In this document: one piece after another, positions 328 through 55,500 of the stretch
Position numbering within the stretch: the stretch's first letter is position 1
How the letters are laid out: every line of letters begins with the position of its first letter
DNA from: Idiomarina sp.
GTDB taxonomy: Bacteria; Pseudomonadota; Gammaproteobacteria; Enterobacterales; Alteromonadaceae
Length of the DNA stretch: 64,000 bases
NCBI GenBank assembly: GCA_020831965.1
Contig: JAFIFP010000009.1
Location: 186,001 to 250,000, forward strand
Reading direction: 5' to 3'
The notes under the pieces: generated by a model
Seen by the model: the letters and a program-made list of their open reading frames with translations, nothing else
Told to the model about the DNA's origin: nothing
Databases searched by the model: none
Made by a program: the position numbers and the translations under genes

Positions 328-1092
328 TTAATCGATCGTTACTTCTACAGCATCTTCGCCGTAGATCGCAGTAAACCAGTTCTCATCGATATCTTGAGGA
401 GAGCCTTCATAGACAAGTTCGCCGCCTTTCAAGGCAATGACACGGGTTGCATAAGTGCGCACCAACGAGAGGAAGTGCAAATTACAAATGACCGTAACGC
501 CCATCTCCTGATTCACCTTCTGCAAGTACTTCATCACCGAATGCGAAGTGGCCGGATCGAGGCTAGCAACCGGTTCGTCGGCCAGTAGAATCTTAGGGTT
601 CTGCATCAGTGCTCGCGCAATGGCGACACGTTGCTGCTGACCACCAGAAAGATTATCTGCACGAACATAGGCTTTCTCTCGCAAGCCAACGATATCTAAG
701 TACCGATATGCGAGCTCTCTCTCTGCTTTGGAGTAAATTCCCAGCAGCGACTTGAATATTCCAGTCCGTGCAAGCGCCCCCGACAGCACGTTGGTTAACA
801 CTGTTTTTCTAGGGATTAAATTGAACTGTTGGAAGATCATACCGATACGCGAGCGCAGTTGGCGTAGCGAGCGACCTTTCAAATGGGTCACGTCGGCTTG
901 CTCGAAGGTCATCTTGCCTTCACTAATGTCGTGTAGCTGGTTCACACACCGCAGCAGTGTCGATTTTCCCGAGCCGGACAAGCCGATCACCACAAGGAAC
1001 TCCCCCTGCTCAACGCTGATATTCACTGCCTTCAAAGCACGCGTACCATTCGGGTATACCTTGCCAATATGTTCGAGTACGAGCTGGCTCAT
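328..1092 (-). CDS. phnC: Phosphonate-type ABC transporter ATP-binding protein
   Basis: A 254-residue ABC ATPase that would power import of a phosphonate, phosphite or similar oxyanion across the inner membrane. Walker A is GLSGSGKST (about residues 37-45), the signature is LSGGQQQR, and Walker B is ILLADEPVASLD, followed by a switch histidine region (VICNLH). Length and overall pattern fit the PhnC family. Its start overlaps the stop of the binding-protein gene by one base (TAATG), which indicates translational coupling. A membrane protein follows 10 nt downstream. The true substrate cannot be read from the sequence; PhnC and PtxA are close relatives. Confidence 0.85.
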   Translation of the reverse strand: MSQLVLEHIGKVYPNGTRALKAVNISVEQGEFLVVIGLSGSGKSTLLRCVNQLHDISEGKMTFEQADVTHLKGRSLRQLRSRIGMIFQQFNLIPRKTVLTNVLSGALARTGIFKSLLGIYSKAERELAYRYLDIVGLREKAYVRADNLSGGQQQRVAIARALMQNPKILLADEPVASLDPATSHSVMKYLQKVNQEMGVTVICNLHFLSLVRTYATRVIALKGGELVYEGSPQDIDENWFTAIYGEDAVEVTID

Positions 1093-2021
1093 TAGCCCTC
1101 CTGGCCTGCGAGTTGTTCCACGTTCATATCGATCGCTCGGATCGTGTCGCGGAGTAAAAAGTAGTCTGCGTCAGTGGCATCAACAATGCCCTCAACGCTA
1201 TAGATATTGCGGAAAATATCGCGACCCCGTTCCGTATCAAGGAACTTCTTAATGGCAGTAATAAAGGCTTCAGCCACATCTTCTGGCAGGTCCTTACGGA
1301 ATACGAACGGGTCATTTGGAATACGCTCGGTGACAGCAACAATCCGTACCTTGTCTTCCACATCAGGAAACTGAGTGAACACCCGAGTCCTTGCATCACG
1401 GATGTTCCCATCTGCATCGGGCGCTGAGTAATAGGTTGCGCCCGCGTCAACTTGGCCTTGATACACCATGGTAATAACACTGTCGTGTTTCATCGCGAAG
1501 GTTTCACGACCCAGTCGCACTCCTTCTTCACGAATCATCTTCAATGGAAAGAGATAGCCTGACGTAGAGGCGGGGTCGGTAAATGCAAATCGACGTCCAG
1601 CAAGATCCGCGACCGTCTCAATCCCTGAGTCGCTACGTGCGACAATCTGACCTTGATAGTAATCAACACCATGGCGAACTGTTCGCAAGCGTGCCGTAGC
1701 ACCATAGCGTTCGTGTGCCATCAGATAACCAAAGGAGTTCATCACACCGATGTCTGCCCGCCCAGAGCCAAAGGCCTCAACTACGGCGATGTAGCTAGTG
1801 GGAATACCAGTCGTGAAGTAGTACCCTGTTTCCTCTTCCAGAAACTGCAGGAGCTCACGAGAGTTGGACGCGATGGTATCGGCGTCTACTGAAGGAGTGA
1901 AATACAAGCGCACAGGGTTTGTGCGGCTACCAAGATCGCCCACAGGCTGACAACCGACTAGTACAACAGACACCAACGCAATCACGAGCGCTGGCAACCG
2001 AAAGAAACGTTTAAAATGCAT
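1092..2021 (-). CDS. phnD: Phosphate/phosphite/phosphonate-type substrate-binding lipoprotein
   Basis: A 309-residue periplasmic binding protein of the PhnD family, first gene of the ABC importer operon. I place the start at the ATG at 2021: it is preceded by GAGAGAG and opens directly into a signal peptide with the lipobox LVGC near residue 24. A longer reading frame upstream adds 20 residues that do not look like a signal peptide. The body has PhnD-like features: a loading region around TPSVDADTIA, a segment GRADIGVMNSFGYLMAHE that lines the cleft in this family, and FAFTDPASTSGYLFP. A gene of this type could bind phosphite, phosphonates or other small oxyanions. The upstream intergenic stretch carries REP-like palindromes rather than an obvious Pho box. 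Confidence 0.8.
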   Translation of the reverse strand: MHFKRFFRLPALVIALVSVVLVGCQPVGDLGSRTNPVRLYFTPSVDADTIASNSRELLQFLEEETGYYFTTGIPTSYIAVVEAFGSGRADIGVMNSFGYLMAHERYGATARLRTVRHGVDYYQGQIVARSDSGIETVADLAGRRFAFTDPASTSGYLFPLKMIREEGVRLGRETFAMKHDSVITMVYQGQVDAGATYYSAPDADGNIRDARTRVFTQFPDVEDKVRIVAVTERIPNDPFVFRKDLPEDVAEAFITAIKKFLDTERGRDIFRNIYSVEGIVDATDADYFLLRDTIRAIDMNVEQLAGQEG

Positions 2022-2089
2022 AACGCACTCTCTCACAATGAATTGGGCGCCTGTTATATCAACGAAATATGACAACCCCATGACAGATT

Positions 2090-2216
2090 GGGGTCAGACC
2101 CTCAAATTTAGCGCTAAACCCATGAAAAATAGAGAAAAGCTTAAACAGGGTCAGAGTCAAAAACTAGATATCTCAAAGTATCAATGACTTAGCTGAAAAA
2201 ATGAGGGTCTGACCCC
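2090..2216. repeat. Family-1 REP pair (inverted 14-bp arms)
   Basis: GGGGTCAGACCCTC at 2090-2103 is the exact reverse complement of the 14 bases at 2203-2216, about 100 bp apart. A third, looser copy (GGGTCAGAGTC) starts near 2148. The left arm is followed at 2111-2131 by a 21-base stretch that recurs exactly at 25405-25425, so this is a longer related unit and not just a chance palindrome. The motif is the same as that flanking the transposase at 53.5 kb. It lies between phnD and the terminator of the TPR gene. Confidence 0.8.
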
Positions 2217-2256
2217 AAACTAGATGTTGCGAAATATCAGTGGGTTAGCTGAGATT
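2163..2256 (+). repeat. Diverged direct repeat next to the REP pair
   Basis: Two stretches of about 38 bp, 2163-2200 and 2219-2256, align as direct repeats. Both begin ACTAGAT and share TATCA, TG and TTAGCTGA at the same spacing. One copy lies inside the REP arms and one just outside, separated by the arm at 2203-2216. No coding potential is evident. Confidence 0.6.
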
Positions 2257-2267
2257 TGTGGGGGGGG

Positions 2268-2298
2268 ATGAAAAAAAAACCCGCCGAGGCGGGTTTTT
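2268..2298 (-). terminator. Rho-independent terminator of the ttpC-tonB2-TPR operon
   Basis: AACCCGCC-GAG-GGCGGGTT type hairpin with a run of nine A on the left and TTTTT on the right. Read on the minus strand it follows the stop of the TPR gene by about 25 nt and ends in a long T tract. The symmetry also allows termination on the plus strand. Confidence 0.9.
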
Positions 2299-2320
2299 CT
2301 AGAGGCTATTACGGTCTCGC

Positions 2321-3637
2321 TTAGATACTTGCACCGCGACGCTCAGCTGTATCGCGAATATAATTCGCCCAGCTTTCAGCATTTCGGCGAGTTGCCGAGA
2401 AACGCTGTGCATTCTCTGCTGCGGCCAATGCCTGACGGTATTGGTTCGCATAAAAGTGCGCTTCAGCCAAGCTCATGTACAAGCGACCCGATGTATCATT
2501 ATCCGGGCCTAACTCAATGGCACGGCGGAATGAACGTGAAGCTTCTACATATTTTTCAGCGAGCATCAAAGCATCACCCTGCGAGCGCAGATGAGCAATA
2601 CGGTTCTCATCGTCTTCTGCAACAGCCACCGCCTGCTCGTAAGCTTCTGCTGAACGAGTGAATTCCCGCGCACTAAAGAAGCTACGCGCAGCACTTGCCC
2701 AATTCGCGCGAGTCGGCTCGATGTCCCCGCGACGTAAATGACGCTCCATGACCTCACCAGCATGAAATGGAATGCTATTGTTCGCATACATTTGCACTAA
2801 ATAACGGAAGTCAGCAGAACGCTCCAAGTAACCCGCATCGTAAGCGATGTTCAAGGTTGCCAAAGATTTATCAAACTCTTCGTTCAGTGCATAGAATGCG
2901 CCCAATTGCGACCACCAACGGGTTTCTTCAGGCATCACGACAATGCCCTCTTCCATGACGCTAATAGCGCCAGGAATATTGCCCTGCTGGAAGTACGCAC
3001 CCACCATCAGCACATACGGATTGCGATTTGGCCGCTCGTAGTTCTCAATCGCCTTGCGAGCGAATGGAATAACGCGCGGATAATTCTCAAGTTCCATGTG
3101 TGACGCGGCGATACGGAACAGCACGTCCGGATTCCATTCGCCCGCGAACTGCAAGTAGCGAATGAACATATCAATCGCTTTTTGGTATTGCTCAGTCTGC
3201 AAATACATATTGGCTAACAACTGCAGCGACGCGCGTTGGTCGTTAAAGCTCAAAATGTCAAACTCAAGAGCCTTTTCTAACTGCTCAATTACGAACTGAG
3301 GACGCGCTTGCTCTTCATCAAGCGCCGCAGCCAGTGAACCTAACATTCGAGCGATGTAAGCACGCTCATAGTTGGTCCGCGGGTTTGAGTCCTCAAGAAT
3401 ACGCATAGCGCCCAGGACATCTTCTTCCTCATAGAGTTCAAAGGCCTGAATAACGCGACGCGACAAGCGTTCATTGAGCGCAAAGGACTGACGTCGGTCA
3501 CGACGTGCATCGATTTCTTCCTGAGATGGAATGGTAAAACCAACGCCGTCCTCGTTCGCATGCGACTTAGAGGCTAAGCTGGTCGCTCCCAGGAGCATAG
3601 CGACCGCAAGTATAGTACTTGAAAAGTGCTTAGTCAT
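2321..3637 (-). CDS. TonB2-cluster tetratricopeptide-repeat protein
   Basis: A 438-residue secreted or periplasmic protein with an N-terminal signal peptide ending near residue 27 (KSHA). The rest is a run of helical pairs with TPR spacing, for example around residues 145-175, 185-200, 210-245 and 350-420. Start and stop lie directly after tonB2 (2 nt gap), last gene of the operon, with the terminator just beyond. A TPR protein is the usual last member of ttpC-exbB2-exbD2-tonB2 clusters in vibrios and relatives. By position it probably assists the TonB complex in the periplasm, but its biochemical role is not known to me. Confidence 0.85.
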   Translation of the reverse strand: MTKHFSSTILAVAMLLGATSLASKSHANEDGVGFTIPSQEEIDARRDRRQSFALNERLSRRVIQAFELYEEEDVLGAMRILEDSNPRTNYERAYIARMLGSLAAALDEEQARPQFVIEQLEKALEFDILSFNDQRASLQLLANMYLQTEQYQKAIDMFIRYLQFAGEWNPDVLFRIAASHMELENYPRVIPFARKAIENYERPNRNPYVLMVGAYFQQGNIPGAISVMEEGIVVMPEETRWWSQLGAFYALNEEFDKSLATLNIAYDAGYLERSADFRYLVQMYANNSIPFHAGEVMERHLRRGDIEPTRANWASAARSFFSAREFTRSAEAYEQAVAVAEDDENRIAHLRSQGDALMLAEKYVEASRSFRRAIELGPDNDTSGRLYMSLAEAHFYANQYRQALAAAENAQRFSATRRNAESWANYIRDTAERRGASI

Positions 3638-23640: not shown

Positions 23641-25308
23641 TTACTTCGTAATACGCTTGTATCTGATACGATGCGGTTCCATCGCATCGGCACCAAAGGT
23701 CTTCTTCATGTACTCCTCGTACTCGGAGTAGTTACCCTCGTAGAAGGTAATTTGGCCTTCATCACGGTAATCCAAAATATGAGTCGCAATACGGTCAAGG
23801 AACCAACGGTCGTGCGAGATAACCAAGGCGGCGCCGGGGAATTCGAGCAGAGCTTCTTCCAATGCTCGGAGTGTTTCCACGTCGAGATCGTTGGTGGGCT
23901 CATCGAGCAGTAACAAGTTACCGCCGGCCTTCAGAAGCTTGGCCAAATGAACACGGTTGCGTTCACCACCGGAAAGCTCGCCAATGCGTTTCTGTTGGTC
24001 ATTGCCACGGAAATTGAAACGACCCACATAAGCACGGCTGGGAACTTCGTAGTTACCAATTTTCAGGATATCATGACCTTCCGAAATCTCTTCCCACACT
24101 GTTTTCTTCGCGTCCATGTCGTCACGGAACTGATCCACCGACGCTAACTGAACCGTTTCGCCCAGCTCCACTGTGCCGGAGTCTGGAGATTCCTTGCCGG
24201 AAATCATGCGGAAGAGTGTCGACTTACCGGCACCGTTCGGACCGATAATTCCGACAATCGCGCCTTTCGGCATGCTAAAGCTTAAATCGTCAATGAGAAC
24301 ACGCTCACCATAGCTCTTCTTCAGGTTGTTCACGTCCAGTACCTTGTCACCCAAACGCGGTCCGGGCGGAATGAAGAGTTCATTAGTTTCGTTGCGAGTT
24401 TGGTGCTCTGCGCTTTGTAATTCTTCAAAACGAGCCAAACGTGCTTTGCTCTTCGCTTGGCGACCTTTCGGGTTTTGACGTACCCACTCTAATTCTTTCT
24501 GAATCGACTTCTGACGCGCAGCTTCAGAGCGCTCTTCTTGCTTCAAACGAGCATCTTTCTGCTCAAGCCAGCTCGAATAGTTGCCTTCCCATGGAATGCC
24601 ATAGCCGCGGTCAAGTTCCAGAATCCAGCCTGCCACGTTGTCGAGGAAGTAGCGGTCATGGGTAATGGCCACAACAGTGCCTTCATAGTCATGCAGGAAG
24701 CGTTCGAGCCAAGCTACCGATTCGGCGTCCAAGTGGTTGGTCGGTTCATCGAGAAGCAACATATCGGGCTTTTCAAGAAGTAAGCGGCAAATCGCGACAC
24801 GGCGACGCTCCCCCCCGGATAGGTGTTCAATGGTCGCGTCCCATGGTGGCAAGCGCAGCGCGTCGGCGGCACGTTCAAGCACGTTATCAATACTATGACC
24901 GTCCTTCGCTTGCAGAATCGCCTCCATTTCGCCTTGCTCTTTCGCTAAGGCATCGAAGTCAGCGCCCTCTTCTGCGTAGGCTGCGTAGATCTCGTCGAGG
25001 CGGCGCAATGCATCTTTGACGTCCGATACTGCTTCTTCAACAATTTCACGCACCGTCTTCGAAGGATCGAGTTGTGGTTCCTGCGGTAAGTAACCGATCT
25101 TGATCCCTGTTTGTGGGCGGGCTTCACCTTCAAACTCAGTATCAACGCCAGCCATAATACGCAGCAAAGTCGACTTACCCGAGCCATTAAGACCGAGCAC
25201 ACCAATCTTCGCACCAGGGAAAAAGCTTAAGGAAATGTCTTTTAGAATCGTACGTTTCGGAGGAACAACTTTGCTGACACGCAGCATGCTGTAAATGTAT
25301 TGCGCCAT
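23641..25308 (-). CDS. ettA: Energy-dependent translational throttle EttA (ABC-F ATPase)
   Basis: A 555-residue soluble protein with two ABC domains and no membrane segment. Walker A motifs are GLNGSGKST (about residues 38-46) and GPNGAGKST (about 355-363). Signatures are LSGGERRRV and LSGGERNRV, and Walker B with DEPTNHLD and DEPTNDLD. A charged linker of about 80 residues (KQEERSEAARQKSIQKELEW) lies between the domains, and the arm insertion fits EttA. It acts at the ribosomal E site to gate the first peptide bond according to ADP/ATP ratio. It seems to head a two-gene unit with btuB. Confidence 0.95.
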   Translation of the reverse strand: MAQYIYSMLRVSKVVPPKRTILKDISLSFFPGAKIGVLGLNGSGKSTLLRIMAGVDTEFEGEARPQTGIKIGYLPQEPQLDPSKTVREIVEEAVSDVKDALRRLDEIYAAYAEEGADFDALAKEQGEMEAILQAKDGHSIDNVLERAADALRLPPWDATIEHLSGGERRRVAICRLLLEKPDMLLLDEPTNHLDAESVAWLERFLHDYEGTVVAITHDRYFLDNVAGWILELDRGYGIPWEGNYSSWLEQKDARLKQEERSEAARQKSIQKELEWVRQNPKGRQAKSKARLARFEELQSAEHQTRNETNELFIPPGPRLGDKVLDVNNLKKSYGERVLIDDLSFSMPKGAIVGIIGPNGAGKSTLFRMISGKESPDSGTVELGETVQLASVDQFRDDMDAKKTVWEEISEGHDILKIGNYEVPSRAYVGRFNFRGNDQQKRIGELSGGERNRVHLAKLLKAGGNLLLLDEPTNDLDVETLRALEEALLEFPGAALVISHDRWFLDRIATHILDYRDEGQITFYEGNYSEYEEYMKKTFGADAMEPHRIRYKRITK

Positions 25309-25383
25309 GGGAGTTCAAACCCTATCTAAGAACCAAAACAATAGCGCGAACTATACCACAAACCCCACCCCACAAAACAGAAC

Positions 25384-25740
25384 GGGGTCAGAACAACTCA
25401 TTTGGCGCTAAACCCATGAAAAATATGCAAAACCCCAGAATGGGGTCAGACCCTAAAATTGAGGGTCAGATGAACCTCATTATCTTTTATCCTATTGAAT
25501 AATATAGATTATTTAATCAGAACCCGAGTTGTAACCGGTAGAACAATCTGGTTTCTACCGGTTTTCGCCACGAATAAGCGGATTCTGTGGCGATTGTCGT
25601 TAAATAACATTGTACGCAATAAGAAATATCGGCAGGTATAAGGCACTTTGTTGATCTGACCCTATTCTCTACAAGCCTTTAAAAACGGAAAATCGGGCTG
25701 AAAAAGTTGTTCTGACCCCAACTTAAAGGGGTCTGACCCC
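25384..25740. repeat. Composite family-1 REP element between ettA and btuD
   Basis: GGGGTCAGAACAAC at 25384-25397 is the exact reverse complement of 25706-25719, so 14-bp arms enclose about 336 bp. Further copies of the motif lie at 25442-25454, 25461-25471, 25653-25663 and 25728-25740. The stretch 25653-25721, read on the minus strand, is a third copy of the roughly 72-nt unit that flanks the transposase at 53.5 kb. Positions 25405-25425 match 2111-2131 exactly. Inside are two strong hairpins at 25533-25563 and 25566-25592. No ORF is evident in this 414-base gap between genes. Confidence 0.8.
25533..25592. other. Two adjacent strong hairpins inside the composite REP element
   Basis: AACCGGTAGAA (25533-25543) pairs with TTCTACCGGTT (25553-25563) around a 9-base loop, followed by TT. 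Next comes CGCCACGAAT...ATTCTGTGGCG (25566-25592). The first could act as a weak terminator on the plus strand, but both neighbouring genes are on the minus strand, so structure of a repeat element is the better reading. Confidence 0.5.
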
Positions 25741-26442
25741 GATCTGGGTTTGGAAAACGTGGTTTTGGTTTTGGGGGGTGAGGGTTGTGGGGGTGGGGCC
25801 GTGGGCGTAAATCGTGCCTTCGTGAAGGAGAGCGATGTCGTCGCACCAGTCGGAGGCCGCCTGGAGATCGTGCAACACGACGATTACGCAGGCTCCTTGT
25901 GCGGCTTGGTTGCGCAAAATTGCCATCGCCTGCTGTTGATGCAGCGGATCCAAGCCAGCCGTTGGTTCATCCACTAACAATAACTTCGGCTGACCAGCCA
26001 GCACACGCGCCAATAAAACTCGTTGTAATTCACCAGTAGATAACTCATGTACGGAGCGTGTCGCCAACGACAAAACATCGGTCTGTTTCATAGCCCATTG
26101 CATAGCAGTGGCCGCTTCCGCAGAAGAACGATACAACGCACCTAACGCAACTAAGTCACCGGCAGGCAAGCCCCACGCCGGCGTTTCTCGCTGCCCTAAA
26201 TAGCCAATCAATCGCGCGCGCTCAGCACGAGGCATTAATGCAAGCTCACTTCCCTGCCAACCAATCTGTCCTCGCGTCACCGGCTCAATACCTGCCACCA
26301 GTTTCAGTAGCGTGCTCTTCCCGCTACCGTTCACGCCCAACAAACCTGTCACGCGCCCAATCGGAAAGCTCCCGCTCACACCACGCAATACTTGCCGCTG
26401 ACCATAGCCCCCAACCACATCCGTTAAATCCAATCCGCTCAT
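25723..26442 (-). CDS. btuD: FecCD-type ABC importer ATPase, BtuD-like
   Basis: A 239-residue ABC ATPase of the cobalamin/siderophore/haem class. Walker A is GVNGSGKST (about residues 35-43), the signature LSTGELQRV, and Walker B LLLVDEPTAGLD. The LSTGE form of the signature is less common than LSGGQ. It overlaps btuC by 4 nt. The last residues (IGVRPL) are encoded by the family-1 repeat GGGGTCAGACCCC, and the stop TAA follows directly, so the native 3' end has been replaced or extended by the repeat. Substrate assignment to B12 rests on the nearby receptor. Confidence 0.82.
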   Translation of the reverse strand: MSGLDLTDVVGGYGQRQVLRGVSGSFPIGRVTGLLGVNGSGKSTLLKLVAGIEPVTRGQIGWQGSELALMPRAERARLIGYLGQRETPAWGLPAGDLVALGALYRSSAEAATAMQWAMKQTDVLSLATRSVHELSTGELQRVLLARVLAGQPKLLLVDEPTAGLDPLHQQQAMAILRNQAAQGACVIVVLHDLQAASDWCDDIALLHEGTIYAHGPTPTTLTPQNQNHVFQTQIGVRPL

Positions 26443-27434
26443 CGGGGTTCACTCCAACCATGCTTGCCACGCAACAAAATCCATAAAAAGAATGGCCCAC
26501 CAAACAAGGTCAGCACCACGCCAACGCGCAGTTCCGATGGCGTGGGCAACCACTGCACCAGCATGTCCGCCCACAACAAAAACACGGCGCCAGCTAGGCC
26601 TGAACTCAAGAGCAATTTACCGGGGTCAGCTGCAACCCAGCGACGCATTAAATGCGGCACAATCAGTCCGACAAAGCCAATCACACCGGTCATAGCAACA
26701 CAGCTTCCCACTAACAATGCCGTGCCCAACAACAAAAGTAAGCGCTCACGTCCAACGGCAAACCCAAGCGTCAAAGCCGTATCCTCTCCCAAGGTTAGGG
26801 CACGCAAAAACGGCGCTGAACGCCACACCAACACAACACCAGCCAGCAAAAACGGCGCCATAAACACCAGTTGGTCCAAGTCGCGATACGCCACCGATCC
26901 CATCAACCAAAAACTCATTTCCTGCATGGCAAACGGATTGGGTGCAACGCTGAGCGCCAACGCAATCAGGCCCGAAAAAAACGCAGAACAGGCAATACCC
27001 GCCAAAATCAATGTCGTTGTACTCGCCCGCCGACCGGCTATACCTAAGAGCAGCAACAACGCTGCCAAACTCCCCAACACCGCACTTAACGGCAATAAGA
27101 ACGAATGCCAGAGCGCCAGCCCAAAATACAACACCAGCACAGACACTACCGCCGCACCACCACTGATCCCCAATATCCCCGGCTCCGCCAATGGATTGCG
27201 CAATAGCCCCTGCATGGCAGCACCAGCCATTGCCAAACCAAATCCGGCACACAAGGCCAGCAATACTCTCGGCAAACGCACATCTAATAAAATCTGTCGA
27301 GCCAACAGGTCTGCCGGCGATTCCACGTTACCAAACAGAGCACGCCATACCGAGATATCCACCGCTCCCGCATGCAACGCCAGCACAGCGCTCACCGCAA
27401 TCAATGCCAATAAAGTCCATCGATGATTCATCAT
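26439..27434 (-). CDS. btuC: FecCD-family ABC permease, BtuC-like
   Basis: A 331-residue permease with about 10 membrane helices. Family motifs: LPRVLLALCAGFGLAMAGA with AMQGLLRNPLAEPGILG, GSVAYRD, and IGFVGLIVPHLMRR near residue 265. These are the hallmark segments of BtuC/FecCD importers of cobalamin, haem and ferric siderophores. Start and stop both overlap the neighbouring genes by 4 nt, giving a coupled btuF-btuC-btuD unit. Confidence 0.85.
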   Translation of the reverse strand: MMNHRWTLLALIAVSAVLALHAGAVDISVWRALFGNVESPADLLARQILLDVRLPRVLLALCAGFGLAMAGAAMQGLLRNPLAEPGILGISGGAAVVSVLVLYFGLALWHSFLLPLSAVLGSLAALLLLLGIAGRRASTTTLILAGIACSAFFSGLIALALSVAPNPFAMQEMSFWLMGSVAYRDLDQLVFMAPFLLAGVVLVWRSAPFLRALTLGEDTALTLGFAVGRERLLLLLGTALLVGSCVAMTGVIGFVGLIVPHLMRRWVAADPGKLLLSSGLAGAVFLLWADMLVQWLPTPSELRVGVVLTLFGGPFFLWILLRGKHGWSEPR

Positions 27435-53311: not shown

Positions 53312-53432
53312 AGGGTCAGATGAAGAAACGTTAACTTAAATTGGGGTCAGATGAGCTTTTTCGGGATGATTTGTTGTTTTTAAAGGGCTGCAGAGGATGG
53401 GGTCAGACCCTCTTGGGTGAGGGTCTGACCCC
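53312..53432. repeat. Family-1 REP unit, left flank of the RAYT gene
   Basis: A full roughly 72-nt unit runs from 53341 to 53412: TTGGGGTCAGATGAGCTTTTT, a variable middle, GTTTTTAAAGGGCTGCAGAG, and a terminal GGGGTCAGACCCTC. This last arm (53399-53412) is the exact reverse complement of 53419-53432 with 6 bases between, giving a strong 14-bp hairpin. A partial copy (AGGGTCAGATGAAG) precedes it at 53312. Confidence 0.85.
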
Positions 53433-53526
53433 AAATTTTTTCGGGCGATTGCGTAACTGGCGGGCGTTTAAGGTCAGTTGAGGCTAGCTTTACTGTCCTC
53501 ACACCCACCAGGACAAGGAGAAAGTC

Positions 53527-54210
53527 ATGCCCCGCCATAAACGCTCTACTCTTCCGGGCATTCCCCAGCACGTAGTTCAGCGAGGGAATAACAAAGGGCC
53601 CTGCTTTTTAGACGAACAAGATTTCGCGCTCTACGCACGTTGGCTTGCGGAGTACAAAACTGAGTTCCAAGTTGATATTCATGCTTGGGTATTTATGACC
53701 AACCACGTGCATATTCTCTGCACCTCCCATATCCACAAAGGTGTGAGCAAAATGATGCAAGCGCTCGGGAGAAAGTATGTTCCTTACTTCAATAAAAAAC
53801 ATCAGCGCACAGGCACGCTTTGGGAGGGACGGTTTAAGTCCAGCATGGTGGATACAGATGAATACTTGCTCGCGGCCTATCGATACATTGAGCTGAATCC
53901 AGTTCGGGCTCGCATGGTGCACCAACCCAACGAGTATCACTGGTCGAGTTTTCGCGCCAATGCTTACGGCTCGCGCTCATCACTGCGCACGCCACACAAA
54001 GTCTATTTGGACCTAGGAGACACAGAGGAAGAGCGATTAAGAGCTTACCGCTCTCTCTTTGCAAAGGATGTGGAAGGCGAAGTCTTAGCGCAGATTAGAG
54101 AGGCAATACAGAGCAATAAAGCCTTTGGAAGCGACGCGTTTAAGAAGCGGATGGAGCTTGCAACAGGCCAACCACAGGAGCATAAGCGGAAAAAAGAGCC
54201 CGCGCATTAA
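53527..54210 (+). CDS. REP-associated tyrosine transposase (RAYT, IS200/IS605-like Y1)
   Basis: A 227-residue single-strand DNA transposase-like protein. It has PGIPQHVVQRGNN at the N-terminus, the HUH metal motif in MTNHVHIL, and the single catalytic tyrosine region YLLAAYRYIELNPVRA. The C-terminal tail is basic (HKRKKEP), as in RAYTs. AAGGAG lies 8 nt upstream of the start. It is flanked by inverted REP units rather than IS ends and no TnpB is present. RAYTs cut and join REP hairpin DNA and are thought to spread REPs. No frameshift or truncation is seen, so it is probably active or recently so. Confidence 0.93.
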   Translation: MPRHKRSTLPGIPQHVVQRGNNKGPCFLDEQDFALYARWLAEYKTEFQVDIHAWVFMTNHVHILCTSHIHKGVSKMMQALGRKYVPYFNKKHQRTGTLWEGRFKSSMVDTDEYLLAAYRYIELNPVRARMVHQPNEYHWSSFRANAYGSRSSLRTPHKVYLDLGDTEEERLRAYRSLFAKDVEGEVLAQIREAIQSNKAFGSDAFKKRMELATGQPQEHKRKKEPAH

Positions 54211-54213
54211 ACT

Positions 54214-54326
54214 GAGGGTCAGACCCCAAACTTTGGGGTCTGACCCTCATCTCTACAGCCCTTTAAAAACGATCAAACGAGCCTAAAAAGTTCATCTGAC
54301 CCCAATCTGTTAGACCCCAATCTGTT
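54214..54326. repeat. Family-1 REP unit, right flank of the RAYT gene, reaching into fabV
   Basis: A near-perfect palindrome of 18-base arms around one base is centred at about 54231: GAGGGTCAGACCCC (54214-54227) against GGGGTCTGACCCTC (54235-54248). From 54235 to 54306, read on the minus strand, is the same roughly 72-nt unit as on the left flank but inverted. It ends with a tandem duplication: 54298-54311 and 54313-54326 carry the identical GACCCCAATCTGTT. The second of these encodes the end of fabV. Confidence 0.85.
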
Positions 54327-55500
54327 GCCAGGGGGCTTGGGTGGGGGTGTCGGCGGTGTAGTCGACGTTGTCGATGCCGAAGCCGAAGAGGCGGAGGAAG
54401 TCGGCGTGGTAGCCTTCATAATCCGCGAGTTGGTGGAAGTTGTCTTGGGTGACTTGGTTCCACAAATCTTCGATCACGGCTTGGGTGGCGTCGTTGGTTT
54501 CCTTGCCATCCATCCGCAGGCGCCCTGCTTCGTCAAGCTCTGGCGCGCTCACATACAAGCCTTCCGTGAACAAACGGTACGCCTGCTCAATACAACCCTC
54601 GTGCGTACCCGCTTCCTTCATTACTTTGTACATCAACGAGATATACAAAGGCATCACCGGAATAGCTGAGCTCGCCTGAGTCACCACCGCTTTTAACGAA
54701 GACACATAGGCTTTCAGGCCCAAATGGTCATAGCCGTTACGCAGCGCCGAAGCAGCCCGGTCTAAATCTTCTTTGGCATGACCAATGGTGGCATGACCAT
54801 AAATTGGCCAGGTCAACTTCTTACCAATGTAGGTATAAGCTGTGGTTTGAACTCCTTGCGCCAATACGCCAGCTTCGTCTAACGCTTTAATCCAGCGCTC
54901 CCAGTCTTCACCACCCATGACTTTCACGGTATTGGCAATCTCTTCATCTGTCGCAGGCTCTAAGCTCACGTCATGCACGAGGTCTTTGTCAGTATCGTAA
55001 GTTTTGGTGGTATAAGGACGCCCTACTGGCTTCAACGTAGAGCTATAGACTTCACCCGTTTCAGGGTCACGGCGCTTAGGCGACGCTAAGCTGTAGATCA
55101 CCAAATCCACTTGCCCAAGATCTTCTTTAATCTTGGCAATAGTCTGGTCTTTAATTTCGTCGGAGAACGCATCACCATTCAAGCTCTCAGCATACAAGCC
55201 TGCTGCACGCGCTTTCTCATGAAAGGCTGCCACATTATACCAACCTGCGGTGCCGGTTTTACGATCGGAAGGCTCTTTTTCAAAGCACACACCTAAGGTC
55301 TGCGCGCCACTGCCAAATGCGGCCACAATGCGCGAAGCCAACCCATACCCCGTCGAGCACCCAATCACGAGCACGCGCTTCGGGCCATTCACGGCTGGCA
55401 AGCTTTTCACATAATCAATTTGTTCTTGAACGTTCGCGGCGCACCCAACCGGGTGGGAATTCGTACAGATAAACCCGCGGATTCTTGGCTGAATAACCAT
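54310..55500 (-). CDS. fabV: Trans-2-enoyl-CoA/ACP reductase FabV
   Basis: A 396-residue NADH-dependent enoyl reductase. [20 protein letters not shown] is the family N-terminus; [15 protein letters not shown] binds the cofactor; the catalytic tyrosine lies in [16 protein letters not shown] with a lysine in IGHAKEDL. FabV is the triclosan-tolerant alternative to FabI. The last residues (QQIGV) and the stop come from the duplicated repeat element at the RAYT right flank, so the 3' end is probably altered. bolA lies upstream on the same strand. Confidence 0.95.

Follow-up and report, generated by a model that had tools for sequence, protein, structure and literature searches.

The 64,000-nt stretch of Idiomarina sp. 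DNA that was analysed (contig JAFIFP010000009.1; the window) contains an intact transposase gene lying between two inverted copies of a repeat, and the question it raises is what kind of system the gene and its repeats form. A sequence-only reading of the window took the gene for a RAYT with its own REP unit on either side in opposite orientations. Background on RAYTs and REPINs is given by Nunvar (2010) and by Bertels and Rainey (2011). The features at the locus are as follows.

53527..54210, plus strand: gene for a Y1 HUH tyrosine transposase (TIRYT), 227 aa, coordinates including the stop codon
53341..53412, plus strand: left unit, ATTGGGGTCAGATGAGC ... GTTTTTAAAGGGCTG ... GGGGTCAGACCC, motif-to-motif distance 56 nt
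54235..54306, minus strand: right unit, the inverted copy of the left unit
53398..53433, plus strand: left hairpin, motif copies face to face (GGGGTCAGACCC..GGGTCTGACCCC), DNA fold -18.7 kcal/mol, z -6.45
54215..54247, minus strand: right hairpin, motif copies face to face, DNA fold -18.2 kcal/mol, z -8.21
53313..53320, plus strand: extra outer motif GGGTCAGA, with the next same-direction motif 31 nt on
54298..54327, minus strand: outer repeat end duplicated in tandem, two 15-nt copies of (C/T)AACAGATTGGGGTC

The layout described in the sequence-only reading, an intact transposase between inverted units of about 72 nt, each joined to a strong palindrome, is borne out at all of these coordinates; the extra motif at 53313 and the duplication at 54298-54327 go beyond that reading. 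The gene flanks, inverted to each other, are 75.8% identical across 99 nt (E 2.7e-18; row L063), and none of 200 shuffles folded as well as either flanking hairpin. Read inward, each flank has GGGGTCAGATGA outermost, then GTTTTTAAAGGGCTG, then GGGTCAGACCC, which makes up one hairpin arm. A further pairing, of AGGC with GCCT inside the 56-nt unit, was considered and rejected because 10 of 13 units had z within 1.2 of zero; the other three had z of -1.6, -2.4, and -5.1. In some rows AGGC is kept while its would-be partner becomes GGCT, which also counts against an internal hairpin.

On its right side, the repeat reaches into the neighboring gene fabV. The outer copy of the 54298-54327 duplication forms the last five codons of fabV (QQIGV), beyond the W that ends fabV in most relatives, and the inner copy supplies the stop, so that the fabV stop lies within the repeat end.

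The protein carries HVH at residues 60 to 62 and YIELNP around Y120, both conserved across 67 aligned sequences (its own included), and it matches PF01797 (Y1_Tnp) in Pfam with 49.3 bits. An HUH motif and a catalytic tyrosine in a Y1 transposase are what characterizes a TIRYT. In the part of Di Nocera et al. 2013 (PMC3733652) available to us, a TIRtron is a Y1 transposase gene, the TIRYT, within inverted repeats, many of which carry GGGGWSAS; some of these repeats are self-complementary, dimeric, or grouped, and dispersed copies occur in some genomes. At the present locus, GGGGTCAG flanks the gene on both sides as such a GGGGWSAS inverted repeat. The inverted-unit architecture, which had been put forward as a class deserving description, had thus been reported already in 2013 (PMC3733652) as the GGGGWSAS TIRtron.

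A canonical REPtron, in which a RAYT is flanked by REPs that it recognizes by a GTAG or GTGG foot plus a hairpin, would share several of these features. The protein superfamily is the same, hairpins flank the gene, dispersed copies are intergenic, and in the right unit GTAG stands 5 nt off the hairpin. That unit is, however, one of only 3 with GTAG among 12, in which we found no conserved GT[AG]G hairpin foot, and the transposase reaches 69.2 bits against the NCBIfam RAYT equivalog model REP_Tyr_transpos, under its cut-off of 80. For these two reasons the name REP/RAYT is wrong here. Comparison with the published table shows that NHVH, WE, and YIELNP, the set of TnpAY1 subclass 2.1, are all present, and the part of Quentin et al. 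2018 (PMC6006769) available to us reports no REP-like sequences near subclass 2.1 genes. We regard a REPtron as improbable. What stands of the sequence-only reading is a Y1 transposase bracketed by an inverted, dispersed repeat that is likely its substrate.

We detected no C-terminal helix-turn-helix (HTH) in the transposase, for which Pfam gives only Y1_Tnp at an E value of ≤10, a search that a short divergent HTH could escape. The locus is, in our judgment, probably a TIRtron whose protein is subclass 2.1-like and has no detectable HTH, and as such belongs to a known, though little-studied, kind related to the REP/RAYT system.

Among 17 genus genomes compared, three have the gene between nqrA and fabV: this genome (G000), G200, and G059. 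Aliidiomarina celeris has it at the same place, which makes four species. In the other 14 genus genomes nqrA and fabV are separated by 118 to 289 nt without the gene (in G010 the distance runs to where the fabV match starts), and the shortest gap, an empty site of 118 nt, belongs to G206, one of the genomes closest in fabV (83.6% protein identity). This pattern of presence and absence is unpolarized. In the transposase tree, G000 and G200 group with support of 100/87 and are joined by G059 with 95/62, on a long branch and at a fork that is not firm. The transposases of these three genomes are just 52 to 64% identical, compared with 84 to 87% for the first 400 nt of nqrA. From the shared site and these identities, the gene seems to be held in place while evolving fast. 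The tails of the repeats differ as well, being AGATGAAC (or AGACCC) here, AGAACAAC/AGAAGCAA in G200, and AGAGGA in G059.

In G059 the nqrA-fabV gap (locus L163, 9.3 kb) also contains an open reading frame of 2,698 aa. Beside fabV, it carries a repeat end resembling the one that belongs to another, distinct Y1 gene (L129; CGGTCAG...CTGACC), so that two Y1 systems meet at one place.

These data bear on whether the block from 53341 to 54306 is a transposable module, as the sequence-only reading suggested, in the form of an active insertion sequence of the IS200/IS605 type that moves as a whole. Such an element would have a Y1 transposase, inverted ends with hairpins, and an empty site in a relative, all of which are seen. 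Its movement as a whole nevertheless finds no support: the gene is the only Y1_Tnp match in its genome, it occupies the same place in four species, and repeat ends are scattered without it. In addition, the NCBIfam IS200 model gives the protein 22.3 bits, under its cut-off of 55. We consider an IS of this type very unlikely.

As the sequence-only reading required, the repeat is not confined to the locus. In the 2.67-Mb genome, GGGGTCAGA occurs 68 times (39 + 29), compared with 8 (5 + 3) for the reversed control; 58 copies fall into 19 clusters, and the 10 isolated copies are about as many as the control leads one to expect. Two of the dispersed clusters lie in the window.

2090..2216, no strand assigned: dispersed motif cluster, with no open frame across it
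25384..25741, no strand assigned: dispersed cluster of six motif copies, among them a single minus-strand unit of the same 56-nt type, with no open frame across it

Of the 19 clusters, 17 are free of any spanning open frame; the other two, in L041 and L053, are crossed by frames of 110 and 187 aa. Same-direction motifs are often 56 to 58 nt apart, with spacings of 31, 40, 60, and 67 nt also found, and many of the 56-nt units share a common descent and are hence not independent. Dispersed intergenic units made of two inverted ends, as in REPINs, are present both in the clusters of this genome and in G200 loci. Empty sites of single units were not resolved among the four clusters queried by DNA, two of which, those of L041, were aligned; the genes flanking the L041 clusters are conserved in relatives, and the intergenes there are too diverged for a target to be read. 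For the surroundings of the two window clusters (1000-3200 and 24300-26800), no counterpart matched at an E value of 1e-20 in 60 kb of G200, 60 kb of G059, or 9.6 kb of G206.

At L041 2837-3067, an array stands where relatives carry what appears by eye to be a terminator hairpin, and arrays of this sort may take over termination.

Units of this kind could also be ordinary extragenic elements, such as terminators or protein-binding palindromes, that are kept for the benefit of the host, the transposase being coincidental or historical. The lack of a spanning frame in nearly all clusters and the L041 array would suit this explanation, as would three genomes that exceed their control with zero Y1_Tnp matches, namely G103 (77 motifs), G037 (31 motifs, control 12), and G033 (35 motifs, control 16). 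Across the family, however, motif excess is tied to a close TIRYT. Of the 60 genomes that have a close TIRYT (E ≤1e-40), 17 showed an excess of at least 20 motifs, compared with 4 of 136 others (Fisher 6e-7, from counts and match lists entered by hand and uncorrected for relatedness).

The dependence of copies on a RAYT-like gene, part of the original proposal, therefore holds as a tendency and not as a rule. Beyond the three genomes just named, G137 has 129 motifs and a sole Y1_Tnp match of 27 bits. Five genus genomes have a TIRYT of at least 48% identity, of which G010 (0 copies) and G204 (3) show no excess of GGGGTCAGA; G010 carries another repeat, GGGGTCGTTGTC. The fourth motif-rich genus genome, G199, has a different Y1 gene that bears an HTH. 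The motifs of G103, G037, G033, and G137 may be relics. REPINs, too, occur in E. coli genomes without a RAYT, according to the part of PMC8049555 available to us.

The second line of evidence against ordinary extragenic elements is the way the repeat ends agree with each other and change with the protein. A homologue was found at an E value of ≤1e-10 in 84 of 196 family genomes. We compared 70 relative loci of the same family (30 + 40, one gene, L081/L093, being counted twice). The core [GA]GGGTC is present on both sides of the gene within 350 nt in 35 of these, and in the other 35 the motif is absent from one or both sides; some of the latter bear other repeats, e.g., GGGGACAGACC. In 29 of the 35 two-sided loci, the 8-nt tail after the core agrees between the two ends at seven or more positions, compared with a shuffled mean of 2.8 loci and a maximum of 9. 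Agreement is weaker in the eight bases outside, at 5.4 compared with 3.5 when shuffled (maximum, 4.5). A second set of 21 loci from named genomes had the two-sided motif in 16, and tails agreed at seven or more positions in 8 of these, weaker than in the first set (shuffled mean, 1.7; maximum, 7).

Tail similarity tracks protein identity in 40 loci (Mantel r = 0.41; 0 of 2,000 permutations), which were picked for end agreement of at least 6, a choice that does not by itself produce a link between tail and protein; like the other family-level statistics, this one is uncorrected for relatedness. Relatives thus have the GGGGTC core in common, followed by a tail that is alike at the two ends of one gene and co-diverges with the protein. 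Against this and the tie to a close TIRYT, ordinary extragenic elements are an unlikely explanation of the repeats.

A possible place of cutting was looked for in short tandem duplications that combine the outer end with GGGGTC and are found at many repeats, the one at 54298-54327 in the window included. Among loci that were fetched because they hold these repeats, we found 46 duplications anchored on GGGTC; each of eleven control words, a pair of reverse complements among them, gave 0 to 5, and a twelfth control word, GACCC, the reverse complement of the core, gave 26. The matches end 0 (10 duplications), 1 (13), 2 (6), 3 (3), or 6 to 8 (14) bases after GGGTC, so that the copies part within 0 to 3 bases past it in 32 of 46, in a search that is blind to breaks before GGGTC. 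A control anchored on the eight outer bases instead yielded 110 pairs; the copies diverge within GGGTC in 62 (at its first or second base in 46, some of low complexity), at 0 to 3 bases after it in 32, and further on in 16. In this control there is a small rise at 0 to 1 bases after GGGTC (22 pairs, compared with 10 at the two preceding positions). Given the 62 pairs that part inside GGGTC, cutting directly after GGGGTC is no more than a weak lead, and slippage at repeats also accounts for many of these duplications.

Species amplify different units. The 56-nt units of this genome have their counterpart in G200 in units of 69 nt, the length of 10 of 15 facing motif pairs of ≤100 nt in the fetched loci; two more are 70 nt and one each is 26, 92, and 100 nt, and the insides of the units are variable. 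Near-perfect hairpins of 53 to 54 nt surround the different, HTH-bearing Y1 gene of G199, while hairpins are mostly 51 to 53 nt in G137 and 28 nt in G103. Motif counts in the genus are 68 in G000, 64 in G059, 58 in G199, and 56 in G200, compared with 0 to 18 in the other 13 genomes.

Compensatory changes in the hairpins of relatives, scored for elements chosen within set length limits, are suggestive at most. In G199, 8 distinct elements had 112 of 112 cells paired (the shuffled maximum was also 112), with 3 both-side changes; in G137, 28 distinct elements had 373 of 392 paired compared with a shuffled mean of 370.2 (maximum, 376), with 2 both-side changes; and in G103, 5 elements had 16 of 20 compared with 15.4, with 1 both-side change.

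Two further observations concern these relatives. In G199 (L192, L171), the divergent Y1 protein has 276 aa and a C-terminal HTH resembling CENP-B_N and is flanked by 54-nt GGGGTCAGA hairpins, so that the same core appears to serve different Y1 subclasses. In G200, a segment of about 1.4 kb with three open reading frames (L177 513-2199) lies between inverted 56-nt units; by eye, one frame is VOC-like and one SGNH-hydrolase-like. The segment is possibly a passenger, or else marks two separate insertions.

Taken together, our main reading, to which we assign a probability of roughly 0.7, is that the locus is a TIRtron in which a single-copy, host-retained Y1 HUH gene (the TIRYT) has its own recognition unit on both sides, in inverted orientation. 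Recognition would rest on an element made up of the GGGGTC core and, after it, a tail that is specific to the lineage (here AGATGAAC or AGACCC), and two facing elements would form a hairpin once the DNA is single stranded. We postulate that the protein binds this single-stranded hairpin, that its cut falls in the core or close to it, perhaps immediately after GGGGTC, and that it joins ends at that place; binding, cutting, the place of the cut, and strand transfer are all predicted from sequence. Short two-ended, nonautonomous units would in this way spread through intergenic DNA, as REPINs are spread by RAYTs, while the gene itself would hardly move. Mobilization of the units by this protein is likewise a prediction.

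A broader proposal, which we advance tentatively and with less than even expectation, is that the bacterial repeats made by transposases include, in addition to the GTAG- and CGTC-tagged REPs, a third large class that is tagged by GGGGTC. The enzyme would recognize and cut next to a fixed GGGGTC, and the next five to six bases would be a specificity code co-evolving with the protein, and inside one genus the class would grade from units of 56 and 69 nt with plain inverted ends into REPIN-like, almost perfect hairpins of 53 to 54 nt. If this is true, the GGGGTC class shows REPs arising from transposon ends. That origin and the recognition of ends by TIRYTs are questions left by PMC3733652 and PMC6006769, as far as the available parts of these papers go. 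Within a single bacterial family, the core-plus-tail layout would supply dozens of proteins together with their substrates, making recognition directly testable by tail swaps.

Among known systems, IS200/IS605 elements share the HUH/Y1 chemistry expected here (available part of PMC8266576). They differ in that the present gene is single in its genome, with no near-identical copies, and has the weak IS200 model score given above.

The resemblance to RAYTs and REPINs, as described in the available parts of PMC8049555 and PMC8266576, extends to a kept single-copy gene, dispersed nonautonomous paired ends, co-evolution of ends and protein, and units that are commoner where the gene is present yet are found without it. 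Unlike in that system, a GGGGTC core plus tail here replaces the GT[AG]G foot, the protein is of another subclass, and the insides of the 56-nt units are mostly unfolded. In the literature covered, on the motif, TIRYTs, and RAYT/REPIN systems, we found no description of GGGGTCAG units as transposase substrates, and the variant layout, with the sequence evidence that suggests recognition, was likewise not found in print.

With TnpAY1 subclass 2.1, in the available part of PMC6006769, the protein shares NHVH, WE, YIELNP, and SS after the core, and at 227 aa it is near the median of 238 aa. Every TIRYT placed in that subclass there has an HTH, whereas here none was found by Pfam at the C terminus, and the locus has clear hairpins and dispersed units. 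The closest likeness is to the TIRtron/TIRYT of PMC3733652, with its gene between inverted repeats and with GGGGTCAG fitting GGGGWSAS. Beyond the TIRtron account in the available part of that paper are the core-plus-tail layout, the co-divergence of tail and protein, the place shared by four species, and the species-specific unit lengths.
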